Both the position numbers and the translations under genes were made by a program. Below, piece after piece: positions 24,883-36,584 of a DNA stretch of 64,000 nucleotides. The stretch is from contig NZ_KI912402.1 in assembly GCF_000518245.1 (NCBI RefSeq), forward strand, positions 364,544 through 428,543. Direction: 5' to 3'. The notes below the pieces were generated by a model. It was not told where the DNA came from. It saw only the letters and a list, made by a program, of their open reading frames with translations, and did no database searches. This stretch comes from Brachyspira alvinipulli ATCC 51933. Lineage in GTDB: Bacteria > Spirochaetota > Brachyspiria > Brachyspirales > Brachyspiraceae. Positions within the stretch are counted from its first letter, which is position 1. Each line of letters opens with the position of its first letter.

Positions 24883-25417
24883 TATTATTGTATTATTATC
24901 TTTTTTTGTTTCATGTACAAATTTTAATAATCTTGGGAATCAAAATGTAGATGATAATTTTGTTCCTCCACCTGATATGGAATTTTATGGTTTTAGAAGA
25001 GAGAGTTATGATACAAATTTTAAGCAGCTTGATTCTTTTGCAACTAATGCTAAATTTTATAACAAGAAAAGAATGGTGGAGCTTTTTGACAGCAGAACAT
25101 ATACTTATGATTCCAACAGTACAATAGCAGCAAGCATATCAGGACAATTTGTAACTATAGATCAAAATACATTTTATGTGCAAATTTACACAAATGTAGT
25201 AGCAAAATCTTCAAATAATACAATTCTTTATACAGAACATTTACAATGGGATAATGAAAAACAGTATGTTAGAAGCCCAGTACCAATGCGTATAGAGAAT
25301 GAGGATGGAAGCTGGCTTACAGGAAGCAGTATGGAAGGTGATTTGGGATTAGAGCATATAACAGTTTATAATGAAACCGATCAGGGAGATGCTATAGGAG
25401 TTCCAGTTGCAGAATAA
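24860..25417 (+). CDS. LptC-like lipoprotein
   Basis: 185 residues from ATG 24860 (aagggtatctata upstream), which opens a lipoprotein signal with lipobox Cys 19 (IIVLLSFFVSCTNF). The body (about 45-180) is a beta-rich domain: DTNFKQLDSFATNAKFYNKK, VELFDSR, TVYNET. This layout (anchor, then a jellyroll of short strands before an LptA-type gene) matches LptC, which passes lipopolysaccharide from the inner-membrane transporter to LptA. It overlaps kdsC by 23 bases and lptA by 11 bases. Primary sequence identity to known LptC cannot be judged here. Confidence 0.6.
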   Translation: MKLLKIFSIIVLLSFFVSCTNFNNLGNQNVDDNFVPPPDMEFYGFRRESYDTNFKQLDSFATNAKFYNKKRMVELFDSRTYTYDSNSTIAASISGQFVTIDQNTFYVQIYTNVVAKSSNNTILYTEHLQWDNEKQYVRSPVPMRIENEDGSWLTGSSMEGDLGLEHITVYNETDQGDAIGVPVAE

Positions 25418-26750
25418 TAGATTATTTTTTGTATTTGCTATATTGTTCATATTCGCTTTATGCTCAGTAGCTCAGCAGTCAAGAAGAAGTGCGGATAAAT
25501 TTACTTATAACAATAAAACAAAAGTATTTCAATATACAGGCAATGCTAAAATGGAAGATTCTTCAGCCGTTATTACTAGCCATGTTATGACATTCTATCA
25601 AGAGACAGAATTGGCAACTTTCAGCGGAGGTGTAAGATTATTAAGTAAAACAAATGGTTCTACTATATCAGGCGGATATGCTAGCTATAATGGAAAAACA
25701 AGATACGCTTATGTAAAAAATAAACCGGTATTAAGATCTCCTACTAATAATATGACTATAAGAAGTTCTTTTATGGAGAGAGATTTTAATACTCCTATTG
25801 CTAGAGCTATTAGTAATGTTCATCTCACACATGTTGATAGAGAAAGTAAAAGACAAACAGATGGATATGCAGACAATTTAGTTTATGATATGGATACTCA
25901 AATATCTGTATTAACAGGAAATCCTAGAATATATCAAGGTGCTGATAGGCTTGAAGGTGAAATATTGGAGTATAATGCGAAAAATGCTACAGCAAATGTT
26001 ATGGGAAGAGGAAAAGTTTATGTTCTTCAAACTAATAATTTGATAAATAGTTCTGAAACAAATAAAAAAAACAGTAATGTTAGTAATTATAATATTATAG
26101 TTGCTGATAGATTATTTTTGAATGAATATGGCGGAAAAGATAATAATACTCGTACTTTATATGCTTATGGAAATGTTACCGCTTTCTTTTATGAAGAGAA
26201 TATGATACTTAAGGGCGGATATATAGAATATGAAATAGATAATGAGCATGTTTATATGTATCAGGATCCTTCTGTTAGAATACCTGACAGAGGAATTATA
26301 GCTTTTGGAGAATGGATAGAATATAAAAAAGATGATAAGTTTAAAGATATAATATTCCATAATGATGTTGTAATGATTGATTATGATGAAAGCATATCAT
26401 TGGAAGGAGATTTGCTTCATTTAGACCCTGATACAAAAGTTGCTACTGTAAGCGGAAACCCAAAGGCTTATGTAGAAGATAGAAGTATTAAGATTACATC
26501 TGTAACTATGCAAATGTTCAATGATGAAGAAAAACTTAGAGCTAATGGAAATGTACATGTAGAAGGTAGAGATATGAATTCTCAAAGTGCTTGGGCTACT
26601 TATTTTGATGAAGAAAAATATTTAAGACTTTGGGGTGAAAGTCCTTATTTAAAGCAAAAAGAAAGTATTGTAAGGGCTAGAGAAATAAAATATTATATAG
26701 AAACTGAAAAAATTGAAGCCACAGGTGTAAGCGGTGAAATACCTGAATAA
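25407..26750 (+). CDS. LptA/OstA-like periplasmic transport protein, extended
   Basis: 447 residues starting at TTG 25407, supported by GGAG six bases upstream inside the previous gene. A signal peptide (about 1-22) is followed by repeated OstA-type strands such as FTYNNKTKVFQYTGNAKMED, SNVHLTHVDRESK, DRLEGEILEYNAKNATANVM, LHLDPDTKVATVSGNP and KLRANGNVHVEGRDMNS. These build the jellyroll bridge that carries lipopolysaccharide through the periplasm. It is more than twice the length of E. coli LptA (185), suggesting fused tandem jellyroll units. It overlaps the next gene by 17 bases. Confidence 0.75.
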   Translation: MQNNRLFFVFAILFIFALCSVAQQSRRSADKFTYNNKTKVFQYTGNAKMEDSSAVITSHVMTFYQETELATFSGGVRLLSKTNGSTISGGYASYNGKTRYAYVKNKPVLRSPTNNMTIRSSFMERDFNTPIARAISNVHLTHVDRESKRQTDGYADNLVYDMDTQISVLTGNPRIYQGADRLEGEILEYNAKNATANVMGRGKVYVLQTNNLINSSETNKKNSNVSNYNIIVADRLFLNEYGGKDNNTRTLYAYGNVTAFFYEENMILKGGYIEYEIDNEHVYMYQDPSVRIPDRGIIAFGEWIEYKKDDKFKDIIFHNDVVMIDYDESISLEGDLLHLDPDTKVATVSGNPKAYVEDRSIKITSVTMQMFNDEEKLRANGNVHVEGRDMNSQSAWATYFDEEKYLRLWGESPYLKQKESIVRAREIKYYIETEKIEATGVSGEIPE

Positions 26751-27708
26751 TGTAATATATTTAATTGCTTTGTCTGTAATTGCGTTTTCATGTACAAAAA
26801 GTACAGAACCTCTTAATAAAGAAAAAAATTATAATGTTAATATTACTTATATAGAAGATGATGGTATTAATTCTTTTGAGCCTAAAGATTTTATTGATAT
26901 TTTTGATGATGATTTGAGTAAATTAACTTATGAGCTGCTTGGATATAAGATAAAATATAATCTTAAAAATGGAACTGATGATAATTATTTTTATAGAGCT
27001 AATAGAAAAATAATACTTGATAATGCTGATGTATTTAAAAGAGATTTTATAGATATAAGAAATATAGATTATGATGTATTAGAAAATGATATAATAAATT
27101 CATTGTCTAATGAAACCAGTATTAATATAAAAAAATTATTTGGTTACGATTACGGAACACCTTTAGAAGTTATATCAAAAAATATAGCACCATCATACGT
27201 AGAAAGTATATTAAGCGTATGGAATAGTCCGGTAAAGAATAGAAATGAATTACTCGTTGGAAATAGATTTATGCTTTATACTGCTTTGTATTGGAAAATA
27301 GTTGCTGAGGAATTTGAAGATTCTGCTATTGTTCTTGTAAATATTCCTATAGCAGCAAATTACAGAGGTATGTCTGCCAAATCCATTGCTGACGGAGGTT
27401 TTGTTGATAGAATAGTTATAGAAAATAATCATATAAAGCCGTGCAAATCTGTAGCTGTAATAAGTATATATAACTTTTTGAATTCTAATATGGATAATGA
27501 AACAATAAAAAAAATATTTTCATATTATATAGTTCAAACTATGGGTATGATGTTTCCAAAGTATGATATAAACGAAGAAGAAAAACATTCTATAATGTCA
27601 GAAGTAAGAGGCTTTGATTATTTCAGCTGGTACAGTAACATAATTAATTTTCAATTAAAAACTCCTTATAAAACTATAAAAGAATATAAAGATACTATAA
27701 AGAAATAA
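26734..27708 (+). CDS. Hypothetical lipoprotein, end of the Lpt-like operon
   Basis: 324 residues from GTG 26734, which opens a lipoprotein signal (VIYLIALSVIAFSCTKS, Cys near 20). The mature part is mixed alpha/beta and rich in Asp/Asn/Tyr, with no family I recognise. It overlaps lptA by 17 bases, so it is translated with the lipopolysaccharide-export genes and may assist them. A role in that pathway is inference from position only. Confidence 0.6.
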   Translation: MKYLNNVIYLIALSVIAFSCTKSTEPLNKEKNYNVNITYIEDDGINSFEPKDFIDIFDDDLSKLTYELLGYKIKYNLKNGTDDNYFYRANRKIILDNADVFKRDFIDIRNIDYDVLENDIINSLSNETSINIKKLFGYDYGTPLEVISKNIAPSYVESILSVWNSPVKNRNELLVGNRFMLYTALYWKIVAEEFEDSAIVLVNIPIAANYRGMSAKSIADGGFVDRIVIENNHIKPCKSVAVISIYNFLNSNMDNETIKKIFSYYIVQTMGMMFPKYDINEEEKHSIMSEVRGFDYFSWYSNIINFQLKTPYKTIKEYKDTIKK

Positions 27709-27967
27709 ATCCATAAAAAATAGTATGAATTAACAATAATAAAATAAACATTATCTCAAAAATGTCTATTAAAAATAATACAAAATTAAAAAAGTGTCTA
27801 TCTATAATGTATAAAATGTAAAGTATAAATATATTGTAATAAACATAATTATAAATTTGTTGTAAATTCACAAAAAAATCTATTTACTTAAAATTAAAAG
27901 AGGTTACAATTTATATATAAACATATTATATATTATGTCGATTTTTATTAGTGGGAGAAAAATTTTA

Positions 27968-28774
27968 ATGAAAAAGATATTAATTTACATTTTTATGGCG
28001 GCAAGCTTTTCGCTGGCTTACGGTTTTGACGAAGGTTTTATTTGGGCATTAAAGGCAAACTTTAATGGTTCTGCTACATTGCCTTCTATAAGTGCCTCAG
28101 ATTTGGATAAATTGGGTGCTGCATATATGAAAGGAGCTGTAGGATATACCATGGACGGAGAGGCTGAGCTTGGTTATTTATTCGGTTCAGAAAAATGGTT
28201 TGGAATGGATACTTCCAAATTTAGCGGAATGAGTGTTTTTGCTTCTTTAGGTGTTGGAAACGGATTTGCTGGACAGGTCGCTGGTAATACTATTGAAGGC
28301 GTTACAGTTAATATGTTTATTAATGTAAGCTATGCTCCTGTAATAAGTTTTGGAGTAGGTACAAAAGCATATTTTTTTGACAGCAGACTTGCTGTTGGCT
28401 TGCATTTGGGAGGAAAATTAATAGCTGATTTATCACCTGAATATTTGGCTTATGCTGATGATAATAGTGCTTTGGCTCCTGAAATAGGTGAAATAATAGT
28501 AACTGATTTTATGATAAAGAATATGAATCCAGTAATGTTCAGTATAAAATTTATGCTTGAATATAATCAGCCTGTAAATGACAGAGTTGAGGTAATATTG
28601 GGAGCTTATACTAGATTTAATGTATATGCCCCAGGTTACATAACTATGCCTCAGAGCTTGCTTGATTTGATGCATCAGGTAAGACCTAATTTTACTACTG
28701 ATACCCCTTTACCATCATATTTCATCAATTCATTAGATTTCGGATTAACTTTGGGGTTAGCATTTAAAGGATAA
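27968..28774 (+). CDS. Outer-membrane beta-barrel protein
   Basis: 268 residues from ATG 27968 (gtgggagaaaaatttta upstream), with a signal peptide ending SFSLAYGF. Gly/aromatic-rich strands follow: GAVGYTMDGEAELGYLFG, MSVFASLGVGNGFAG, YAPVISFGVGTKAYFF, LAVGLHLGGKL, RVEVILGAYTRFNVYA. The end is LDFGLTLGLAFKG. This is the pattern of an outer-membrane porin-like protein. It sits 14 bases before the first member of the large lipoprotein array and is likely cotranscribed with it. Confidence 0.65.
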   Translation: MKKILIYIFMAASFSLAYGFDEGFIWALKANFNGSATLPSISASDLDKLGAAYMKGAVGYTMDGEAELGYLFGSEKWFGMDTSKFSGMSVFASLGVGNGFAGQVAGNTIEGVTVNMFINVSYAPVISFGVGTKAYFFDSRLAVGLHLGGKLIADLSPEYLAYADDNSALAPEIGEIIVTDFMIKNMNPVMFSIKFMLEYNQPVNDRVEVILGAYTRFNVYAPGYITMPQSLLDLMHQVRPNFTTDTPLPSYFINSLDFGLTLGLAFKG

Positions 28775-28788
28775 ATGAGGGGTAAATT

Positions 28789-30351
28789 ATGAAGAAAATA
28801 TATTATTTGCTATTTATTTCTATTATATCAATATTTTTAATGTCTTGCGGAAATTATTTCAATCCAAGATATTATTATAATAGCAGAGGATCATCAATTG
28901 CAGGCAATCTTCCTGATAACCCTGATATAGGCGGAGGAGGAGAGGGCTTATCTCCTGAAGACGATCCTTTTAATAATGATAATGGCGATAAACCATGGAA
29001 TGATCCTAATTACGGCGGATTTACTTTAGACCTTGATGATCTTGTAATAAGAGCAGATTTTGATGGTGATAACAGACCTACTTACAGATTAGAAAAAGGT
29101 ACTTGGGCTTCACATAATCCTGCCAAAAACAGCTATAAAAATGGCGGTAATTTATCATCTGCTGCTGGAAGTTTTAGCATTGATAATGTTACTTATTATT
29201 TATATAAAGGAAAAAATCCAAATTATGACCCTAATAGTTCATATAATCAGAGCAGCAGAATGGAAAGATTTTATTTCTATCATTTAATAGGAAGCTCAGC
29301 AGGAAATACGGTTGATAATTATTTAATATGTATAGATAAATATTCAAAATTAGTATTTGCATTTGGTGTACCTACAAAGTGGACAAAGGTTGTAATAAAA
29401 CAGATGCCTATAGCTTGGGGTGCAGTTGAGTTAGGTTGGGAAGCTGATGCTTATTCTAATGATCCTGTATATTTTAATAAAACAGATGGTATACAATATT
29501 TTTATGAATATGACCCTGTAGGTGTAGTTCTTCCTGATAATACAATTAAGATATTTGATTGGTGTAAAAACTCAATAGCTGGAAATAGATATGGTCCAAG
29601 AGTAAAAGGAGATATTATAGATTTAAACAGACCAATAGCTTCAGAAACAGAAACAGAGGGAAGATCTCCTTATATGCCTATTAAAGTAGAAGCTGGTACT
29701 AAAGACAATGTAACAATAATGGCTAAAAGTTTGAAAAATGTGAGCGTAAAAAGTAGAGAAGCTATATTTGGAATTATGGGTTCTCCTAAAAACAATGCAT
29801 GGTTTACTTACACAATAGCAGGAACAGCTTATAATAATGAAATGGGAAGCGGAGTTCTTCAAAATATAGAGAACTTGGATCCTAGATCTGAATCTACTAC
29901 AGGCATGATATATTTAAGTGAAACAAAAGATATATCTGTTGGAGGTAAAGCTGACTTCTCTTCAAAAATAGTAGCTGAGGTAAGGAGTATAGAAAAAGGT
30001 GCTACTATAGAATTAGCTTCACGTGTAGATAAATATAATAAAGAAACAGGATTTGCTGATACAGCCAAATTTGGACAACATGGTAGCGGAAATATGGCAG
30101 CTGTTTCAGCACCTATTTTGAAATTAAAGTATGATGTTGATAATGAGCAGTTTATTGTGGATACTGAAAACTCTGTTATGAGTAATAATGATCTTTCTAC
30201 AACTATAAGTTCTTATCCTGCAGATTTTACTCTTAAGCGAGGTGAAACTAAGGATATTACTATAAGATACAAATGGATGAAAGGTAATGATACTTCAAGC
30301 GGTGAAGAATTCGAAATTACCTATAGTTTGAAATTTGAATCTGTACAGTAA
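28789..30351 (+). CDS. Large lipoprotein array, member 1
   Basis: 520 residues with lipobox Cys near 20 (IISIFLMSCGNYFNPRYYY). A low-complexity Gly/Asp/Pro stretch (about 35-75: GGGGEGLSPEDDPFNND) leads to a conserved domain (about 80-290) with FTLDLDDLVIRADFDG, YYLYKGKNPNY, LICIDKYSKLVFAFGVP, YFYEYDPVG and EGRSPYMPIKVE. The C-terminal part (about 300-520) ends FTLKRGETKDITIRYKWMKG and has a beta-sandwich look. The family is unknown to me. It is likely surface-exposed. The ribosome-binding site is gaggggtaaatt. A terminator follows. Confidence 0.75.
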   Translation: MKKIYYLLFISIISIFLMSCGNYFNPRYYYNSRGSSIAGNLPDNPDIGGGGEGLSPEDDPFNNDNGDKPWNDPNYGGFTLDLDDLVIRADFDGDNRPTYRLEKGTWASHNPAKNSYKNGGNLSSAAGSFSIDNVTYYLYKGKNPNYDPNSSYNQSSRMERFYFYHLIGSSAGNTVDNYLICIDKYSKLVFAFGVPTKWTKVVIKQMPIAWGAVELGWEADAYSNDPVYFNKTDGIQYFYEYDPVGVVLPDNTIKIFDWCKNSIAGNRYGPRVKGDIIDLNRPIASETETEGRSPYMPIKVEAGTKDNVTIMAKSLKNVSVKSREAIFGIMGSPKNNAWFTYTIAGTAYNNEMGSGVLQNIENLDPRSESTTGMIYLSETKDISVGGKADFSSKIVAEVRSIEKGATIELASRVDKYNKETGFADTAKFGQHGSGNMAAVSAPILKLKYDVDNEQFIVDTENSVMSNNDLSTTISSYPADFTLKRGETKDITIRYKWMKGNDTSSGEEFEITYSLKFESVQ

Positions 30352-30360
30352 AGATAAATA

Positions 30361-30400
30361 AATATAGGCATTGGATAAATACTCTAATGCCTATATTTTT
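30361..30400 (+). terminator. Rho-independent terminator, repeated after array member 2
   Basis: Stem aatataggcatt / aatgcctatatt with a 12-base loop and a T-rich tail. Nearly the same sequence follows the next gene, which marks a tandem duplication that included the terminator. Confidence 0.85.
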
Positions 30401-30437
30401 TATTTATATAAAACCAAATTAAAATTTGGAGATTTTT

Positions 30438-32009
30438 ATGAGAAAGATAATTTTATTATTGGTGTCATTGGTATTTATTATTTCCTGTGGAAATTATTTT
30501 AATCCAAGATATTATTATAATAATAGGGGATCATCAGGTGCCGGTAATGTTCCTGATAATCCAGATTTAGGAGGCGGAGGAGAAGGATTAGCACCTGAAG
30601 ACGATCCTTTTAATAATGATAAAGGTGATAAACCATGGAATGAGCCTGATTACGGTGGATTTACTTTGGATCTGGATAATCTTGTAATAAGAGCAGATTT
30701 TGATGGTAATAACAGACCTACATATAGATTAGAACCTGGTACTTGGGATCCTTATCCTGCTAGTAATGCTTATAAAAACGGTGGAAATTTATCATGTGAA
30801 GCAGGAAATTTTAGTATAGGAAGTGTTACTTATTATTTATATAAGGGAAAGAATCCAAATTATAGTATTGATAGTAAATATAATCAAAGCAGCAGATTAG
30901 AGAGATTTTATTTCTATAGATTAAAAGGAAGTTCTGCTGGAAAAGATGTAAATAATTATTTAATATGTATAGATAAATATTCAAAATTGGTATTTGCTTT
31001 TGCTGTACCTATGGCATGGGAAAGTGTTGTGATAAAATACATGCCTATAGCATGGGGAGCTGTTGAATTAGGTTATGAAATTTATGAAACCGGAGGCGAA
31101 GTATATTTCAATAAAACAGACGGCATACAATATTTCTATGAATATGATCCTGTAGGTATTGTTCATGAAGACGGTACTATAGAAATTTATAAATGGTGTT
31201 CTGACTCCATAGGAAATAATAAATTATACGGACCAAGAGTAGAAGGAAATAAAATAGATTTAGACAGACCTATAGCTTCAAAAGGTGTTGCTGGAAGATC
31301 TCCTTATATGCCTATTAAAGTTGAAGCAACTGTAAAAGATAATGTAACAATAATGGCTAAAAGCTTTAAAAATATAAGTGCTAGAAGTGCAGAAGGATAT
31401 TTGGACTGGTTTGAACCTCAATATGATGATATTAGAGATTACGGATACTTTACATATACTATATCTGCTTCTGCTTATAATAGTGAAATTTCTGATGGTA
31501 CTTTAACTGATATAGAACATTTAGATCCTAGAGATAGCAGTCTTACAGGTATGATATATGTAAATGAAGTTAAGAAAATAGATAAAAATAACTATATTAA
31601 TTTTAATTCAAGTAAATCTTTTGAGATTAAAAATATAAATGAAAATGTATGTATAGATTTAGCTTCGCGTATATTTAAATATAATACACTTAAAGCTATT
31701 GGTATAACTTGCATAGATACTGATAACTTTGGAAAAGGAGGAAGCGGAGAGGTTGCTTCTAAAGATATGCCTAAATTAAAGTTAAAGTATGATGCTGATA
31801 ATGAGCAGTTTGTTGTGGATATTGCAAACTCTGTTATGAATAATGACGGACTTTCTACAACTATAAGTTATTATACACCTGATTTTACTCTTAAGAGAGG
31901 TGAGACTAAAGATCTTACTATAAGATACAAATGGATGAAAGGTAATGATGCTTCAAACGGAGAAGAGGTTGAGGTTACTTATACTTTGAAATTTGAATCT
32001 GTAGAGTAA
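30438..32009 (+). CDS. Large lipoprotein array, member 2
   Basis: 523 residues from ATG 30438 (tttggagattttt upstream; an earlier in-frame TTG lacks support). Lipobox Cys is near 17 (VSLVFIISCGNYFNPRYYY). It is closely related to member 1 along its entire length, including the C-terminal end FTLKRGETKDLTIRYKWMKG. The strongest differences lie at about 325-430, where several residues are inserted or replaced (EGYLDWFEPQYDDIRDYGYF). It is likely a membrane-anchored surface protein; no function is known. A copy of the member 1 terminator follows. Confidence 0.75.
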   Translation: MRKIILLLVSLVFIISCGNYFNPRYYYNNRGSSGAGNVPDNPDLGGGGEGLAPEDDPFNNDKGDKPWNEPDYGGFTLDLDNLVIRADFDGNNRPTYRLEPGTWDPYPASNAYKNGGNLSCEAGNFSIGSVTYYLYKGKNPNYSIDSKYNQSSRLERFYFYRLKGSSAGKDVNNYLICIDKYSKLVFAFAVPMAWESVVIKYMPIAWGAVELGYEIYETGGEVYFNKTDGIQYFYEYDPVGIVHEDGTIEIYKWCSDSIGNNKLYGPRVEGNKIDLDRPIASKGVAGRSPYMPIKVEATVKDNVTIMAKSFKNISARSAEGYLDWFEPQYDDIRDYGYFTYTISASAYNSEISDGTLTDIEHLDPRDSSLTGMIYVNEVKKIDKNNYINFNSSKSFEIKNINENVCIDLASRIFKYNTLKAIGITCIDTDNFGKGGSGEVASKDMPKLKLKYDADNEQFVVDIANSVMNNDGLSTTISYYTPDFTLKRGETKDLTIRYKWMKGNDASNGEEVEVTYTLKFESVE

Positions 32010-32020
32010 AGATAAATAAA

Positions 32021-32051
32021 TATAGGCATTGGATAATATCCTGATGCCTAT
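32021..32051 (+). terminator. Rho-independent terminator, second copy
   Basis: Stem tataggcatt / gatgcctata, a slightly degenerate copy of the hairpin at 30361-30400, followed by tcttatat. Confidence 0.7.
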
Positions 32052-32090
32052 ATCTTATATATAATAAAAATTAAAATGGTTTGTAAATTT

Positions 32091-33593
32091 ATGAAAAAGA
32101 TAATTTTTTTATTAATCATATTTTTTGTATTAATTACATTTATTATTTCATGCGGAAATTATTTTAACCCAAGATACTATTATAATAATAGAGGTTCATC
32201 AGTTGCTGGGGATATTCCTGATAATCCTGATATAGGCGGCGGCGGTGAAAATTTATCACCTGAAGACGATCCTTTTGACCCTTCCGGCGGTAAGGACTGG
32301 AATGATCCTAATTACGGCGGATTTAATTTAAATCTTGATAATTTGGTTATAAGAGCAGATTTTGACGGTAATAATAGGCCTAGTTATAGATTTGAAGAAG
32401 GATCATGGGCGGTAAATGATCCTGCCAAAAATAGTTATAAAAATGGCGGAAAATTATCATGTAAGGCAGGAAGTTTTTCTATTAATGATGTTACTTATTA
32501 TTTATATAAAGGAAAAAATCCTGCATTCGATCCTAATAGTTCATACAATAAAAGTGATAGATTAAAAAGATTTTATTTTTATCATCTAATAGGATCTTCA
32601 GCTGGAAATGTTGTTGATAATTATTTAATATGTATAGACAGCTATTCTAAACTTGTATTTGCATTCGGTGTTCCTATAAAATGGAAAAGTGTTATTATAA
32701 AAGATATGCCTATAGCTTGGGGATCTGTTGAATTGGGTTGGGAGGCTGATTCTAGTTCAAATAATCCTATATACTTTAATAATACATATGGTGTAAAATA
32801 TTTTTATGAATATGACCCTGTAGGTGTAGTTCTTTCTGATAAAACTATTAAAATATTTGATTGGTGTTTAGATTCTATAGCTAAAAACAGATATGCACCA
32901 AGAGTTAAAAATAATGTTATAGATTTGAAAAGACCAATAGCTTCAGCAACAGAAACAGAAGGACGCTCTCCTTATATGCCTATTAAAGTAGATGAAAAAT
33001 TAAGTATGACTGTAACAGCAGAACAAATTCAGATACAGAATGTTGATGTTGTAAGCGCTAATTATTTCTTTGGAGGTATAGATTATAAAAAAGGTTTAGC
33101 CGGCATATCTTATGATATAAGATTTGGATACAATACTTCTTCCGGAGTTATGGATAATTTTGAAACTATAAATAAATTTGATAAAACTACTTTGTTTTCT
33201 AGTTTATTCAGTGTCAAAGTTGGGGAAACTAAAACTATAACTTCAACGCCTAAAGAATTGAAAATAGAATATACTGAAAAAGAAGATATTTATTTATTGC
33301 TTGATGCTAATGTTACAGTTTACTCAAGCGGAAATGTCTGGACTTCTGAATGGCCTAGTGCTATGATAGATACTCAAAAACCTATAGTAAAACTGAAGTA
33401 TGATAAATCAAAAGATGCCTTTGTGTTTGACAGTATATATGGTGATAATGCTGATAGAATTATAGAATATACAACAGGATTTGAACTTACTAAAGGAAGC
33501 AGTAAAGATTTTACTATAACATTTAAATCAACTGAAATAGGTGAAGAGAAAAAAACAGGAACAATGAAATTAATATATAGATTAAAATACTAA
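32091..33593 (+). CDS. Large lipoprotein array, member 3, with a different C-terminal half
   Basis: 500 residues from ATG 32091 with lipobox Cys near 21 (VLITFIISCGNYFNPRYYY). The N-terminal 295 residues match members 1 and 2 (FNLNLDNLVIRADFDG, YLYKGKNPAF, YFYEYDPVGVV, EGRSPYMPIKV). From about residue 300 the sequence is unrelated or far diverged (MTVTAEQIQIQNVDVVSANY, ending KTGTMKLIYRLKY). The ribosome-binding site is weak (ggtttgtaaattt), a decayed version of the one before member 2. The domain boundary suggests C-terminal exchange. Confidence 0.75.
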   Translation: MKKIIFLLIIFFVLITFIISCGNYFNPRYYYNNRGSSVAGDIPDNPDIGGGGENLSPEDDPFDPSGGKDWNDPNYGGFNLNLDNLVIRADFDGNNRPSYRFEEGSWAVNDPAKNSYKNGGKLSCKAGSFSINDVTYYLYKGKNPAFDPNSSYNKSDRLKRFYFYHLIGSSAGNVVDNYLICIDSYSKLVFAFGVPIKWKSVIIKDMPIAWGSVELGWEADSSSNNPIYFNNTYGVKYFYEYDPVGVVLSDKTIKIFDWCLDSIAKNRYAPRVKNNVIDLKRPIASATETEGRSPYMPIKVDEKLSMTVTAEQIQIQNVDVVSANYFFGGIDYKKGLAGISYDIRFGYNTSSGVMDNFETINKFDKTTLFSSLFSVKVGETKTITSTPKELKIEYTEKEDIYLLLDANVTVYSSGNVWTSEWPSAMIDTQKPIVKLKYDKSKDAFVFDSIYGDNADRIIEYTTGFELTKGSSKDFTITFKSTEIGEEKKTGTMKLIYRLKY

Positions 33594-33766
33594 TATATTC
33601 AATATAATAGGAAATGAACTTTATCTTTGTGATATAGTTCATTTACCTAATTATTAATTTATAATAATAAAGCAGATGATATTAAAAATCTGATTTTATT
33701 AATAACACTTTACAATATTTTATTTTGATATATAATATTTTATATAAAATAATATGGATTAAAACT

Positions 33767-34141
33767 ATGATAAAAAAACTTTCTATAATACTGATTTCTA
33801 TTTTTATAATTTCATGTAATTCTCCCTTTGCTGGAGCAGGAATAAAGTTTTCCAATAGGGCTGGAAGTTATCAAAATAAAGATAAAAGTATTACAGTTAC
33901 AATTACCGACAAATCTAAAGACAATTTAATTATAGATGCAGTATCTTCCGAAACTATAAATGAAACTATAACAATTAATTCTTCTTCTTCAAGTCAGTAC
34001 TTGAAAGTTAATTCTGAAAAATATAATGGATATATTTATATTTTGAATTTAGGTAATAACGTTCAAAATTTATTTTTAACTGTTAGAAATGATAAAGGTC
34101 AAAATGTTATTTTTAATGAAAAGCTTACTATATTAAAATAA
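33767..34141 (+). CDS. Small lipoprotein within the array
   Basis: 124 residues from ATG 33767 with a lipoprotein signal (MIKKLSIILISIFIISCNSP, Cys 17). The mature part is beta-rich with many Thr/Ser/Asn (SITVTITDKSKDNLIIDAV, TINSSSSSQYLKV). It does not share the conserved domain of its neighbours. Its size and strand pattern could make it a stand-alone counterpart of their C-terminal sandwich, but this is not shown by sequence. The start further upstream at 33725 is less likely because it would bury the signal. Confidence 0.6.
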   Translation: MIKKLSIILISIFIISCNSPFAGAGIKFSNRAGSYQNKDKSITVTITDKSKDNLIIDAVSSETINETITINSSSSSQYLKVNSEKYNGYIYILNLGNNVQNLFLTVRNDKGQNVIFNEKLTILK

Positions 34142-34236
34142 TATTTTTTATATCTCTTATTTTAAACTATATATTGTTTACTTATATTTCTTTTGATATA
34201 TACTTTTATTATTAATTTAATAAAGAGAAATTATTT

Positions 34237-35157
34237 ATGAAAAATATAATAAAAAAAGTTCAGAAGAAAACTATTATTCTATCTATATTAACTATTATTA
34301 TGGTTCTTGTTATATCAAGAGCATGTTCAAGCAAATTCGATCCTAGATATTATTATCAGCAAATGCAAAATAAAGAAAATGGCACAGGTACTGAAGAACC
34401 AGATATTGGGGGAGAGGGAAATTTGAATCCTGAAGATGACCCTTTTAAAACCGGTGAATGGAATGATCCTAATTATAGAGGCTTTACTCTTAATCTTGAT
34501 AATGATTATGTTATAGCCGCTTCTTTCGGACTTAAAAATGAACCTAGATATATGCTTATAAAAGATGATACTTGGAAATTAAATGATTCTTTAAGAAATG
34601 AATATTATTATAACGGTACTAATACAAAAGCTGCTGGTTTTCCTGTTAGAAGAGTAAAATATTTTATGTATAAAAACATGAATCCTACTTTCAATGCAAC
34701 TAATAGCTATAATAAAAGTTCTAGACTAAAAAGGTTTTGGTTTTACCGTTTTACAGGAAATGCAGGTGTAAATACGGATAATTATTTAATCGCTATAGAT
34801 AGTTATTCTAAACTTGTATTTGCTTTTGCTGTTCCTACTAAATGGAAAGCTATTCTTGGAATACCAGCTCCTGAAGAATGGGGAGCAGTTGAGCTTGGAT
34901 GGGAGGCTAATGCTGATACTGATAATTTAAATAGTCATGTGAAATTCGCTGTTGATGGACTAAAATATTTTTATGAATATGATCCTGTAGGTATAGTTAA
35001 GCCTAACGGAGATATAGAGATATATCAATGGTGTTTGGATTCTATAGGAAATAATAACAGATATGCCCCTAGACTCAATGGAAGCGTTTCTGATTTGACT
35101 AGAAAAATTGCTGATTATGGTTTTGCAGGACGTTCGCCTTATTTGCCTATGAAATAG
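34237..35157 (+). CDS. Large lipoprotein array, member 4, short form
   Basis: 306 residues with N-terminal hydrophobic segment and Cys near 30 (VLVISRACSSKFDPRYYY). The conserved domain is present (FTLNLDNDYVIAASFG, YFMYKNMNPTF, LIAIDSYSKLVFAFAVP, YFYEYDPVGIV) and the protein stops at AGRSPYLPMK, exactly where the conserved half ends in members 1-3. It therefore consists of the N-terminal domain alone. The clean stop at the boundary suggests a natural short form or loss of the C-terminal half. The lipobox (SRAC) is poorer than in its relatives. Confidence 0.7.
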   Translation: MKNIIKKVQKKTIILSILTIIMVLVISRACSSKFDPRYYYQQMQNKENGTGTEEPDIGGEGNLNPEDDPFKTGEWNDPNYRGFTLNLDNDYVIAASFGLKNEPRYMLIKDDTWKLNDSLRNEYYYNGTNTKAAGFPVRRVKYFMYKNMNPTFNATNSYNKSSRLKRFWFYRFTGNAGVNTDNYLIAIDSYSKLVFAFAVPTKWKAILGIPAPEEWGAVELGWEANADTDNLNSHVKFAVDGLKYFYEYDPVGIVKPNGDIEIYQWCLDSIGNNNRYAPRLNGSVSDLTRKIADYGFAGRSPYLPMK

Positions 35158-35336
35158 GGTTTTTTATATATTAGTTATTTGTATTTTAATCCAACTTATA
35201 AATATTTAAAAATTTCTATTTTTTAAAAAAATTTGAAAAAGTTATATATATATTGTTTATTTTCTTTAATAAATGGCTTATTTTTTAAAAACATTTGTTT
35301 AACTATAGTCTGTATTATTTATTAAAAGGAGATTAT

Positions 35337-36029
35337 ATGTTTAATGATTTTAATAATGATAACTTAGACGCTAGTTTTATTAATGAAAAACAAATATTAG
35401 CCTCCATTTTGTCAAACGGCATATCCTTTGATAAGGCAAACTCTATAGTAGAAAAACTTTATTACAGGTTTTATAACTTATATAATATAGTCAATGCTTC
35501 CAATGAAGAATTATTGAAAGTTAAAGGCTTAAATATTAAAAAAATAGAACTATTAAAAAATATACCTTCTCTTTTGGAATGCTATCTATTAAGCAGTATT
35601 AAACTTTCCAGCAATCATTTTAAGAAAAAAGATTTAATAAATTATCTTATAGTAAAAATGGGTAAATTAAAGTTTGAAGCATTTTCTATGGTTTGTTTGG
35701 ATGTAAATAAAAGATTTATATCTATGGAGAATATATTTAGGGGTACTATAGATTCGGCTACAATATATCCTAGAGATTTGGTGGAAAAATCTTTGTCTCT
35801 TGGTGCGAGTTATGTTATTATATCGCATAATCATCCTTCTGGAATAGCAAAGCCTTCTAAAGAGGATATAGAGATAACAAAGGTTTTATATAAGGCTTTT
35901 TTAATGGTTGAAATAAGGATGATAGACCATATTATAGTTGCAGGTAATAATGTATACAGCTTTAGAGAAAATGGCATGTTTGAAAAGTATAAAAATAATA
36001 TGGAGGGTATAAATTATGCTAACTACTAA
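35337..36029 (+). CDS. radC: RadC-family JAB-domain protein
   Basis: 230 residues from ATG 35337 (aaaaggagattat upstream). A helix-hairpin-helix-like part (about 15-80: ILASILSNGISFDKANSI, LLKVKGLNIKKIELLKN) precedes the JAB/MPN domain with SHNHPSG at 163-169, the downstream Asp 177 and DHIIV near 205. The domain has a zinc metallo-isopeptidase fold. The original DNA-repair role of RadC has been questioned, and its biochemical function is unsettled. It overlaps the XRE gene by 14 bases, so they form a unit. Confidence 0.88.
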   Translation: MFNDFNNDNLDASFINEKQILASILSNGISFDKANSIVEKLYYRFYNLYNIVNASNEELLKVKGLNIKKIELLKNIPSLLECYLLSSIKLSSNHFKKKDLINYLIVKMGKLKFEAFSMVCLDVNKRFISMENIFRGTIDSATIYPRDLVEKSLSLGASYVIISHNHPSGIAKPSKEDIEITKVLYKAFLMVEIRMIDHIIVAGNNVYSFRENGMFEKYKNNMEGINYANY

Positions 36030-36441
36030 TTTGAAAAAACCATATTATAATAATATTCTTAGTGACAGTAAGGGAGAAAATAATCAAGAAGACTTGCCTC
36101 CAAAAAGAGATGATAATGAGGTTATATTATCTGTTGGTAAAAATATACGTGCTATAAGAAAATCTCAAATGAAAACTATATCTGAAATAGCAGAAATATC
36201 CGGAATATCATCAAAATATCTGCAAAGTGTAGAGGTAGGTAAAAGAAACATATCTATTACAAATCTTAACAAAATAGCTGTGAGTTTAGGGGTTCCTATT
36301 GCATTACTTTTTAGTTATGATCATGTAGAAAAGACAAAAAAACTGTTATGTATAGCAAATAAACTTAAAAATTATTCTGTTTTGCAGCTTTCTAATATAG
36401 ATATTATTATTAATGATTTGGAAGATATAATAGATAAATAA
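36016..36441 (+). CDS. XRE-family DNA-binding regulator
   Basis: 141 residues. An N-terminal tail of about 40 residues precedes a Cro/C1-type helix-turn-helix (about 43-97: VGKNIRAIRKSQMKTISEIAEISGISSKYL, VEVGKRNISITNLNKIAVSLG). A short helical C-terminus follows. The start lies in the end of radC with GGAGG nine bases upstream, so translation is coupled. It may control radC or its own operon; targets are unknown. Confidence 0.85.
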   Translation: MLTTNLKKPYYNNILSDSKGENNQEDLPPKRDDNEVILSVGKNIRAIRKSQMKTISEIAEISGISSKYLQSVEVGKRNISITNLNKIAVSLGVPIALLFSYDHVEKTKKLLCIANKLKNYSVLQLSNIDIIINDLEDIIDK

Positions 36442-36584
36442 AATATTATGTTAATAAAAAATATATTTGTTAATAGATTTTTAACTATTCCGACAATATA
36501 AAAATAGGTTTATAATATTTTTTTACAAAACTATATAAATCGAAGTTTTTATTAATATAGTTCAAATTTTAGGAGAGGTCTATT

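Follow-up and report, generated by a model that had tools for sequence, protein, structure and literature searches.

In a 64,000-nucleotide stretch of the 3.42 Mb genome of Brachyspira alvinipulli ATCC 51933 (contig NZ_KI912402.1, positions 364,544 to 428,543 of the forward strand; hereafter the window), we analysed a tandem array of four lipoprotein genes, m1 to m4, together with p279, the gene that precedes them. We found that the four proteins share a constant N-terminal module (N module), which is followed in m1 to m3 by a C-terminal module (C module). Our preferred interpretation, which we hold with moderate confidence, is that the locus belongs to a family of modular envelope lipoproteins in spirochaetes, which work with a small outer-membrane barrel. 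As far as sequences can tell, comparison among genomes shows a modular layout, recombination at the module boundary, differences in copy number, recent partial transfer, and the co-occurrence and adjacency of barrel-like and N-module genes in several genera. Labels beginning with G and L denote genomes and stretches of their DNA, respectively.

A constant N module with exchangeable C modules

The original prediction described four genes on the same strand with a shared N-terminal half, and this was borne out. The N modules of m1–m4, about 300 residues each, end in GRSPY(M/L)P(I/M)K in all four proteins and are 50–77% identical (m1–m2 75%, m1–m3 77%, m2–m3 70%, and 50–52% for each of these against m4). 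The common leader and the start CGNYFNPRYYY, which had been assigned to all four, hold for m1–m3, where a signal peptide and a lipobox cysteine (SCGNYF) can be recognised by reading the sequence, whereas m4 starts with CSSKFDPRYYY and has the cysteine, an atypical lipobox and a longer leader. The C modules of m1–m3 comprise 201–229 residues, and m4 has none, ending exactly at the N/C boundary as predicted. The predicted sameness of the C modules of m1 and m2 was also confirmed (57.5% identity). The C-terminal half of m3 had been regarded as a different one; with 27–31% identity to that of m1 and 29–31% to that of m2, it is a diverged member of the C superfamily of m1, because the two match at a blastp E of 2e-9, and single linkage places them together.

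With a single protein as query, the N module was detected in 25 of 41 genomes, comprising all 25 of Brachyspira and none of the 16 others. Forty stretches of DNA around matches were taken from the 25 Brachyspira genomes, and the counts of open reading frames (ORFs) given here cover those stretches, not whole genomes. They contain 87 N-bearing ORFs, of which 85 are distinct, since m4 was counted under an identical protein of G009 and another gene lay in two overlapping stretches. The motif G-x-S-P-Y closes the N module in 81 of the 85, and the other four are fragments, which were excluded from clustering. By single linkage (E below 1e-6), the C parts, 0 to 891 residues long, were assigned to superfamily A (43 ORFs), superfamily B (30) or neither, there being no C module (8); the last eight include the leading part of a gene that is split in G008 and a gene truncated by the end of a contig in G012. 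The profiles of A and B are unrelated (hhalign probability 0.1). Long B parts match the 284-residue B module two or three times, and these repeats must have diverged, because a self-comparison of the long B parts showed no repeat at E 0.01. That a single N family carries C modules of two unrelated superfamilies, together with the direct evidence of recombination given below, upholds the proposal that the N half is fixed and the C halves are exchangeable.

Modules also occur in other arrangements. A stand-alone N module is encoded at L005:1471-2172 (G000 contig C2), in a 233-residue protein that has a Sec-like leader but lacks a lipobox, and similar frames of 226–245 residues are present in many Brachyspira genomes. 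The sole N-module protein of G079, a 287-residue ORF (L110:4524-5387), ends in GHSPYRAM. At G010:C3:108498-109115, an A-type module lies in a 315-residue frame, with no N module listed there. An m1-like gene of G008 (L051:14911-16529) is split into two ORFs just past the N/C boundary, and intact copies are found elsewhere.

Conserved pairing of the N module with p279

The usual gene order in Brachyspira is an lptA-like gene, o324, p279, one to six N-bearing lipoprotein genes and frequently x138 as well; some genomes continue with an N gene, radC, a helix-turn-helix gene and fliD, and elsewhere the radC-linked N gene is at a separate place. In all 24 Brachyspira loci where p279 was found, it lies directly 5' of the first N gene, with gaps of 3–77 nucleotides (nt). 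Profile searches of 392 genomes of the phylum detected the N module in 52 and p279 in 50, spanning 10 genera, and all of the 50 are among the 52. In 49 of these 50 genomes p279 and an N gene are adjacent, 40 cases being read as ORFs (24 Brachyspira loci, 12 genomes of other genera with 13 loci, three more genomes, and G114) and nine being based on coordinates (within 1.2 kb, on one strand). Outside the genus, the genomes with both p279 and the N module come from two genera of the family of Brachyspira and from family f19, which we take to be Treponemataceae. In some long f19 proteins the same N module is accompanied by Ig_3 or Flg_new_2 (InlB-type) repeats, and A-type modules also occur there; relatives in the family of Brachyspira carry B-type modules.

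We regard p279 as a putative outer-membrane barrel on the basis of its leader, its conserved C-terminal strand and its strand-like amphipathicity, which was reached by 2 of 500 shuffles. The protein covaries with the first N module beyond what lptA and o324 account for (partial r 0.30; 14/2000 permutations), compared with −0.03 for o324 and the N module given lptA as a control. Both values are from 16 of the 24 p279 loci, the excluded ones being without lptA or o324, or having a cut N module.

Several observations weigh against our preferred interpretation. Two N-positive genomes have no p279, namely G079 (1.1 Mb), with its N protein, and G239, whose N match is weak (E 3e-4). In G275, p279 has no neighbouring N gene, second p279-like genes in G012 (L132:5781-6647) and G008 (L133:1823-2671) have no N gene alongside, and G287 and G338 have a truncated or disrupted p279 next to the N gene. 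Many N genes lie away from p279, as radC-linked genes, single genes or genes of stand-alone proteins, and co-transfer of neighbours could cause the covariation of p279 with the N module. p279 belongs to no recognised Pfam family, 25 scanned members having given only four chance families with one member each. Lastly, the resemblance of the modelled A module to C2 domains, at Z 9.0, is barely above the Z of 7–8 often reached by models without clear relatives.

An alternative is that m1–m4 are ordinary paralogous lipoproteins, perhaps facing the periplasm, which diversified by duplication and homologous recombination, with p279 as an unrelated porin-like neighbour. The duplicated genes and terminators would be explained in this way, as would the N genes away from p279 and the stand-alone N protein of the same genome, with its Sec-like leader and no lipobox; frequent recombination is reported for B. 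pilosicoli (PMC8116685). We nevertheless find this explanation somewhat unlikely, because casual linkage would presumably break more often than is observed in the 50 p279 genomes (of 392; 10 genera), all of which have the N module, 49 of them with the genes adjacent.

The pair might also serve uptake, with the lipoprotein catching a ligand, p279 forming the intake channel and the C modules setting specificity. SusC and SusD of Bacteroidetes, a barrel and a lipoprotein, are encoded together, as are p279 and its lipoproteins, and the gene order, the fixed pairing and the large difference between A and B modules would agree with such a function. However, neither m1–m4 nor the 25 p279 members matched a SusD-type or TonB-dependent-receptor family in Pfam, one p279 is present per up to six lipoproteins, and some of the lipoproteins have no C module, which makes uptake quite unlikely in our estimation.

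Exchange, duplication and transfer of modules

The N module of m3 is 77% identical to that of m1 and its C module 31%, while the single long gene of G002 is 92% identical to m3 in the C module and 56% in the N module. Over 551 informative sites, the switch between the two affinities falls between residues 289 and 290 of m3, beside GRSPY (291–295), with site counts of 201 versus 64 on the left and 13 versus 273 on the right. The resulting chi-square of 294 was reached by none of 2000 shuffles, whose maximum was 19.5. A second hybrid is found in L037, with an N module nearer another type and a C module 72–91% identical to that of m1 in DNA blocks, a comparison that holds for blocks only. Similarly, G016 and G019 proteins share 86% identity in the N module and 27% in the C module, and two genes within one array of G010 are 79% identical in the N module, yet have C modules of types A and B. 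At the level of sequence, these comparisons show that C modules have been exchanged by recombination at the G-x-S-P-Y boundary. Identities of N and C modules correlate across 780 A-type pairs (0.76), and the C label changes 9 times on the N tree, compared with a shuffled mean of about 31 (the tree being of a quick kind, with a warning of long branches). These results indicate that the modules are mostly inherited together and swapped occasionally.

The duplicated terminators had been taken as a sign of recent tandem duplication. The hairpins are indeed near copies, and m1 and m2 share 88% identity over a 267-nt stretch whose end falls in the terminator (30112–30378 versus 31770–32036), but the duplication is not recent, because G009, a relative of another species, has the same m1–m2–m3–x138–m4 set. 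The region 31300–35156 is 99.56% identical to G009 over 3,860 aligned nt, compared with 72–97.5% in 200-nt blocks upstream, and the DNA after m4 differs, which indicates that part of the array has recently passed from one species to another. In the close relative G002 (97% in lptA, radC and fliD), one long gene takes the place of the three in the window. Differences in copy number and in C modules, which the original prediction expected among strains, are thus seen between species. The radC-linked N genes of 12 other genomes encode an A module and group, with support, with the m4 type. Because these 12 genes keep the A module, m4 and the corresponding genes of G009 and G002 have most likely lost their C modules cleanly.

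The layout of the array had been described as suited to antigenic variation. Tandem copies, mosaic genes and the differing copy number between relatives would all be expected of a locus at which C modules are switched within the host by gene conversion or phase variation. However, the A modules of this genome are three in number and all within the full-length m1–m3, and no B module was found in it by a search that finds B in three of six check genomes. Scans of 25000–36500 and 27700–35300 revealed no homopolymer of at least 8 A/T or at least 6 G/C and no likely phase tract at gene starts. The lack of spare A or B modules and of a phase tract argues against within-host switching; in addition, m1 is as well conserved against G009 in its C module as in its N module (91% and 85%), and the type of C module is stable over long stretches of the N tree, with the 9 changes against about 31 mentioned above. 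Antigenic variation in this strict sense is consequently very improbable, while a diversification of ligand binding, suggested along with it, would fit the locus.

Predicted domains and structures

No match above the cut-off was obtained for m1–m4 in Pfam and NCBIfam or for 10 long relatives from Brachyspira, and 10 relatives in NCBIfam gave the same result. In Pfam, two of 10 relatives from other genera had matches above the cut-off, with Ig_3 or Flg_new_2. A DUF5640 match of the m1 C module (E 0.004) was below the cut-off and was not used.

The model of m1, based on 17 sequences (mean predicted local distance difference test score, pLDDT, 75.9; predicted template modelling score, pTM, 0.52), shows an N part rich in beta structure and a sandwich at the C terminus. 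The A module model shares the overall sandwich with C2 domains (best Z 9.0, root-mean-square deviation 3.9, 126 aligned, about 8% identity), although this may be a common arrangement only. A C2-like beta-sandwich is therefore only suggestive, because models without clear relatives often come close to this Z. In Foldseek, the first match of the m1 model was 7dbu (E 2.5e-4), which is not C2 by name, and the second was C2. Sequence searches of solved structures gave no support for a C2 domain in the A module; there were no matches for A1, one chance match for A2, three for A5 and nine for A6, the best of the nine being congerin (E 0.019 over 48 positions). The N module, modelled on m4 (pLDDT 76.7, pTM 0.74), had no Foldseek match at E 0.001 or better when searched alone, and a TbpB chain was among its matches only at E 1.0. 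Its best VIA result (Z 2.9, OspA) was not used.

Proposed mechanism and known systems

In the arrangement that we propose, p279 would either dock the N module or export it, and the C module would point outward and contact ligands. Each lipoprotein would be held by its lipid anchor and an acidic, Gly-rich spacer, and the N module would be the constant part, retained with p279 over long evolution, while the C module would be the free end facing the surroundings. By recombination, either among tandem N modules or across species, the C module could then be swapped at the boundary with the constant part untouched, so that a new C module would bring a new binding function and leave the interface with p279 unchanged. 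Our results suggest a two-part system that may place changeable proteins on or near the cell surface.

A more specific version, which we put forward only tentatively, is that p279 is a dedicated spirochaete export or anchoring barrel that recognises the N module, the latter serving as a general display signal for unrelated passengers, such as A modules, B modules and Ig/InlB-type repeats. Spirochaetes would then have an equivalent of Slam that uses a different barrel and carries its signal domain at the N terminus. In Proteobacteria, Slam combines a TPR domain with a DUF560 barrel of 14 strands; its gene, too, lies beside a lipoprotein gene, and a shared lipoprotein domain is thought to carry the export signal (PMC5449769). 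By contrast, p279 has 268 residues including its leader, and no DUF560 match was found among the 25 members compared with Pfam, so that the combination of TPR and DUF560 is not seen. The shared domain of Slam substrates is an eight-stranded barrel, for which the N module gave no clear match. The logic of the pairing resembles that of Slam, while the parts tested differ, and the N module, the A and B modules and p279 are all nameless in the Pfam and NCBIfam scans.

Among lipoproteins of the genus, BPP43_05035 of B. pilosicoli is at the surface and binds host cells (PMC11444514); the same paper reports that genes cannot yet be deleted in Brachyspira. It is a Brachyspira lipoprotein like m1–m4, but a six-bladed propeller (PDB 7ZAO), and 7ZAO was not among the matches at E up to 10 in profile searches with the m1-type, N and A modules. 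In Borrelia, lipoprotein flipping by LptD and an export cluster with BBJ25 have been described, and the route to the outer face is disputed (PMC13078400). The same question of how lipoproteins reach the outer face is posed here; BBJ25 is of the Omp85 type, whereas p279 matched no such Pfam family. We found no title or abstract describing this lipoprotein family or its pairing with p279 in the open-licence literature, which leaves absence unproven.

Organization of the locus

Features of the array and of its upstream neighbour in the window (starts of m2 and m3 shifted to ATG)
Feature	Coordinates	Strand	Remarks
p279, 268-residue secreted protein, putative outer-membrane barrel	27968–28774	+	directly 5' of m1, 14-nt gap
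m1, lipoprotein	28789–30351	+	N module 28789–29685; A-type C module 29686–30348
Terminator hairpin after m1	30360–30398	+	folding z −7.0, 0/200 shuffles
m2, lipoprotein	30438–32009	+	N module 30438–31319; A-type C module 31320–32006
Terminator hairpin after m2	32020–32053	+	near copy of that of m1; folding z −4.2, 0/200 shuffles
m3, lipoprotein	32091–33593	+	N module 32091–32987; diverged A-type C module 32988–33590; recombination switch at about 32956–32960
x138, small lipoprotein gene close to the 3' end of the array	33767–34141	+	relatives in Brachyspira loci
m4, N module only	34237–35157	+	stops at GRSPYLPMK; groups with 12 radC-linked genes that have an A module

The original prediction covered 28789–35157, which leaves p279 outside, beyond its short spacer, and neither p279 nor x138 was mentioned in it. 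Relatives of x138, for which no family was found, number 19 ORFs in the fetched stretches and the window, x138 itself included, and occupy a similar position in many Brachyspira loci. Between lptA and p279 lies o324 (26734–27708), which is 64–71% identical in 14 of 16 relatives, compared with 86–93% for lptA; to judge from this divergence, it is a fast-evolving gene, and it has no recognised family. A promoter scan was set aside, as it found 69 candidates against a shuffled mean of 61.4.

Implications for spirochaete surface biology

The family described here, which has no name in Pfam or NCBIfam, occurs in all of the Brachyspira sampled and extends to further genera of spirochaetes; its barrel-like partner is conserved, and the boundary between its modules can be seen in the sequence. 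Since the C modules differ between close species, they are relevant to the choice of diagnostic or vaccine antigens. How spirochaete lipoproteins reach the surface is still disputed (PMC13078400), and the locus supplies a concrete gene pair and a boundary with which display and binding may be tested.

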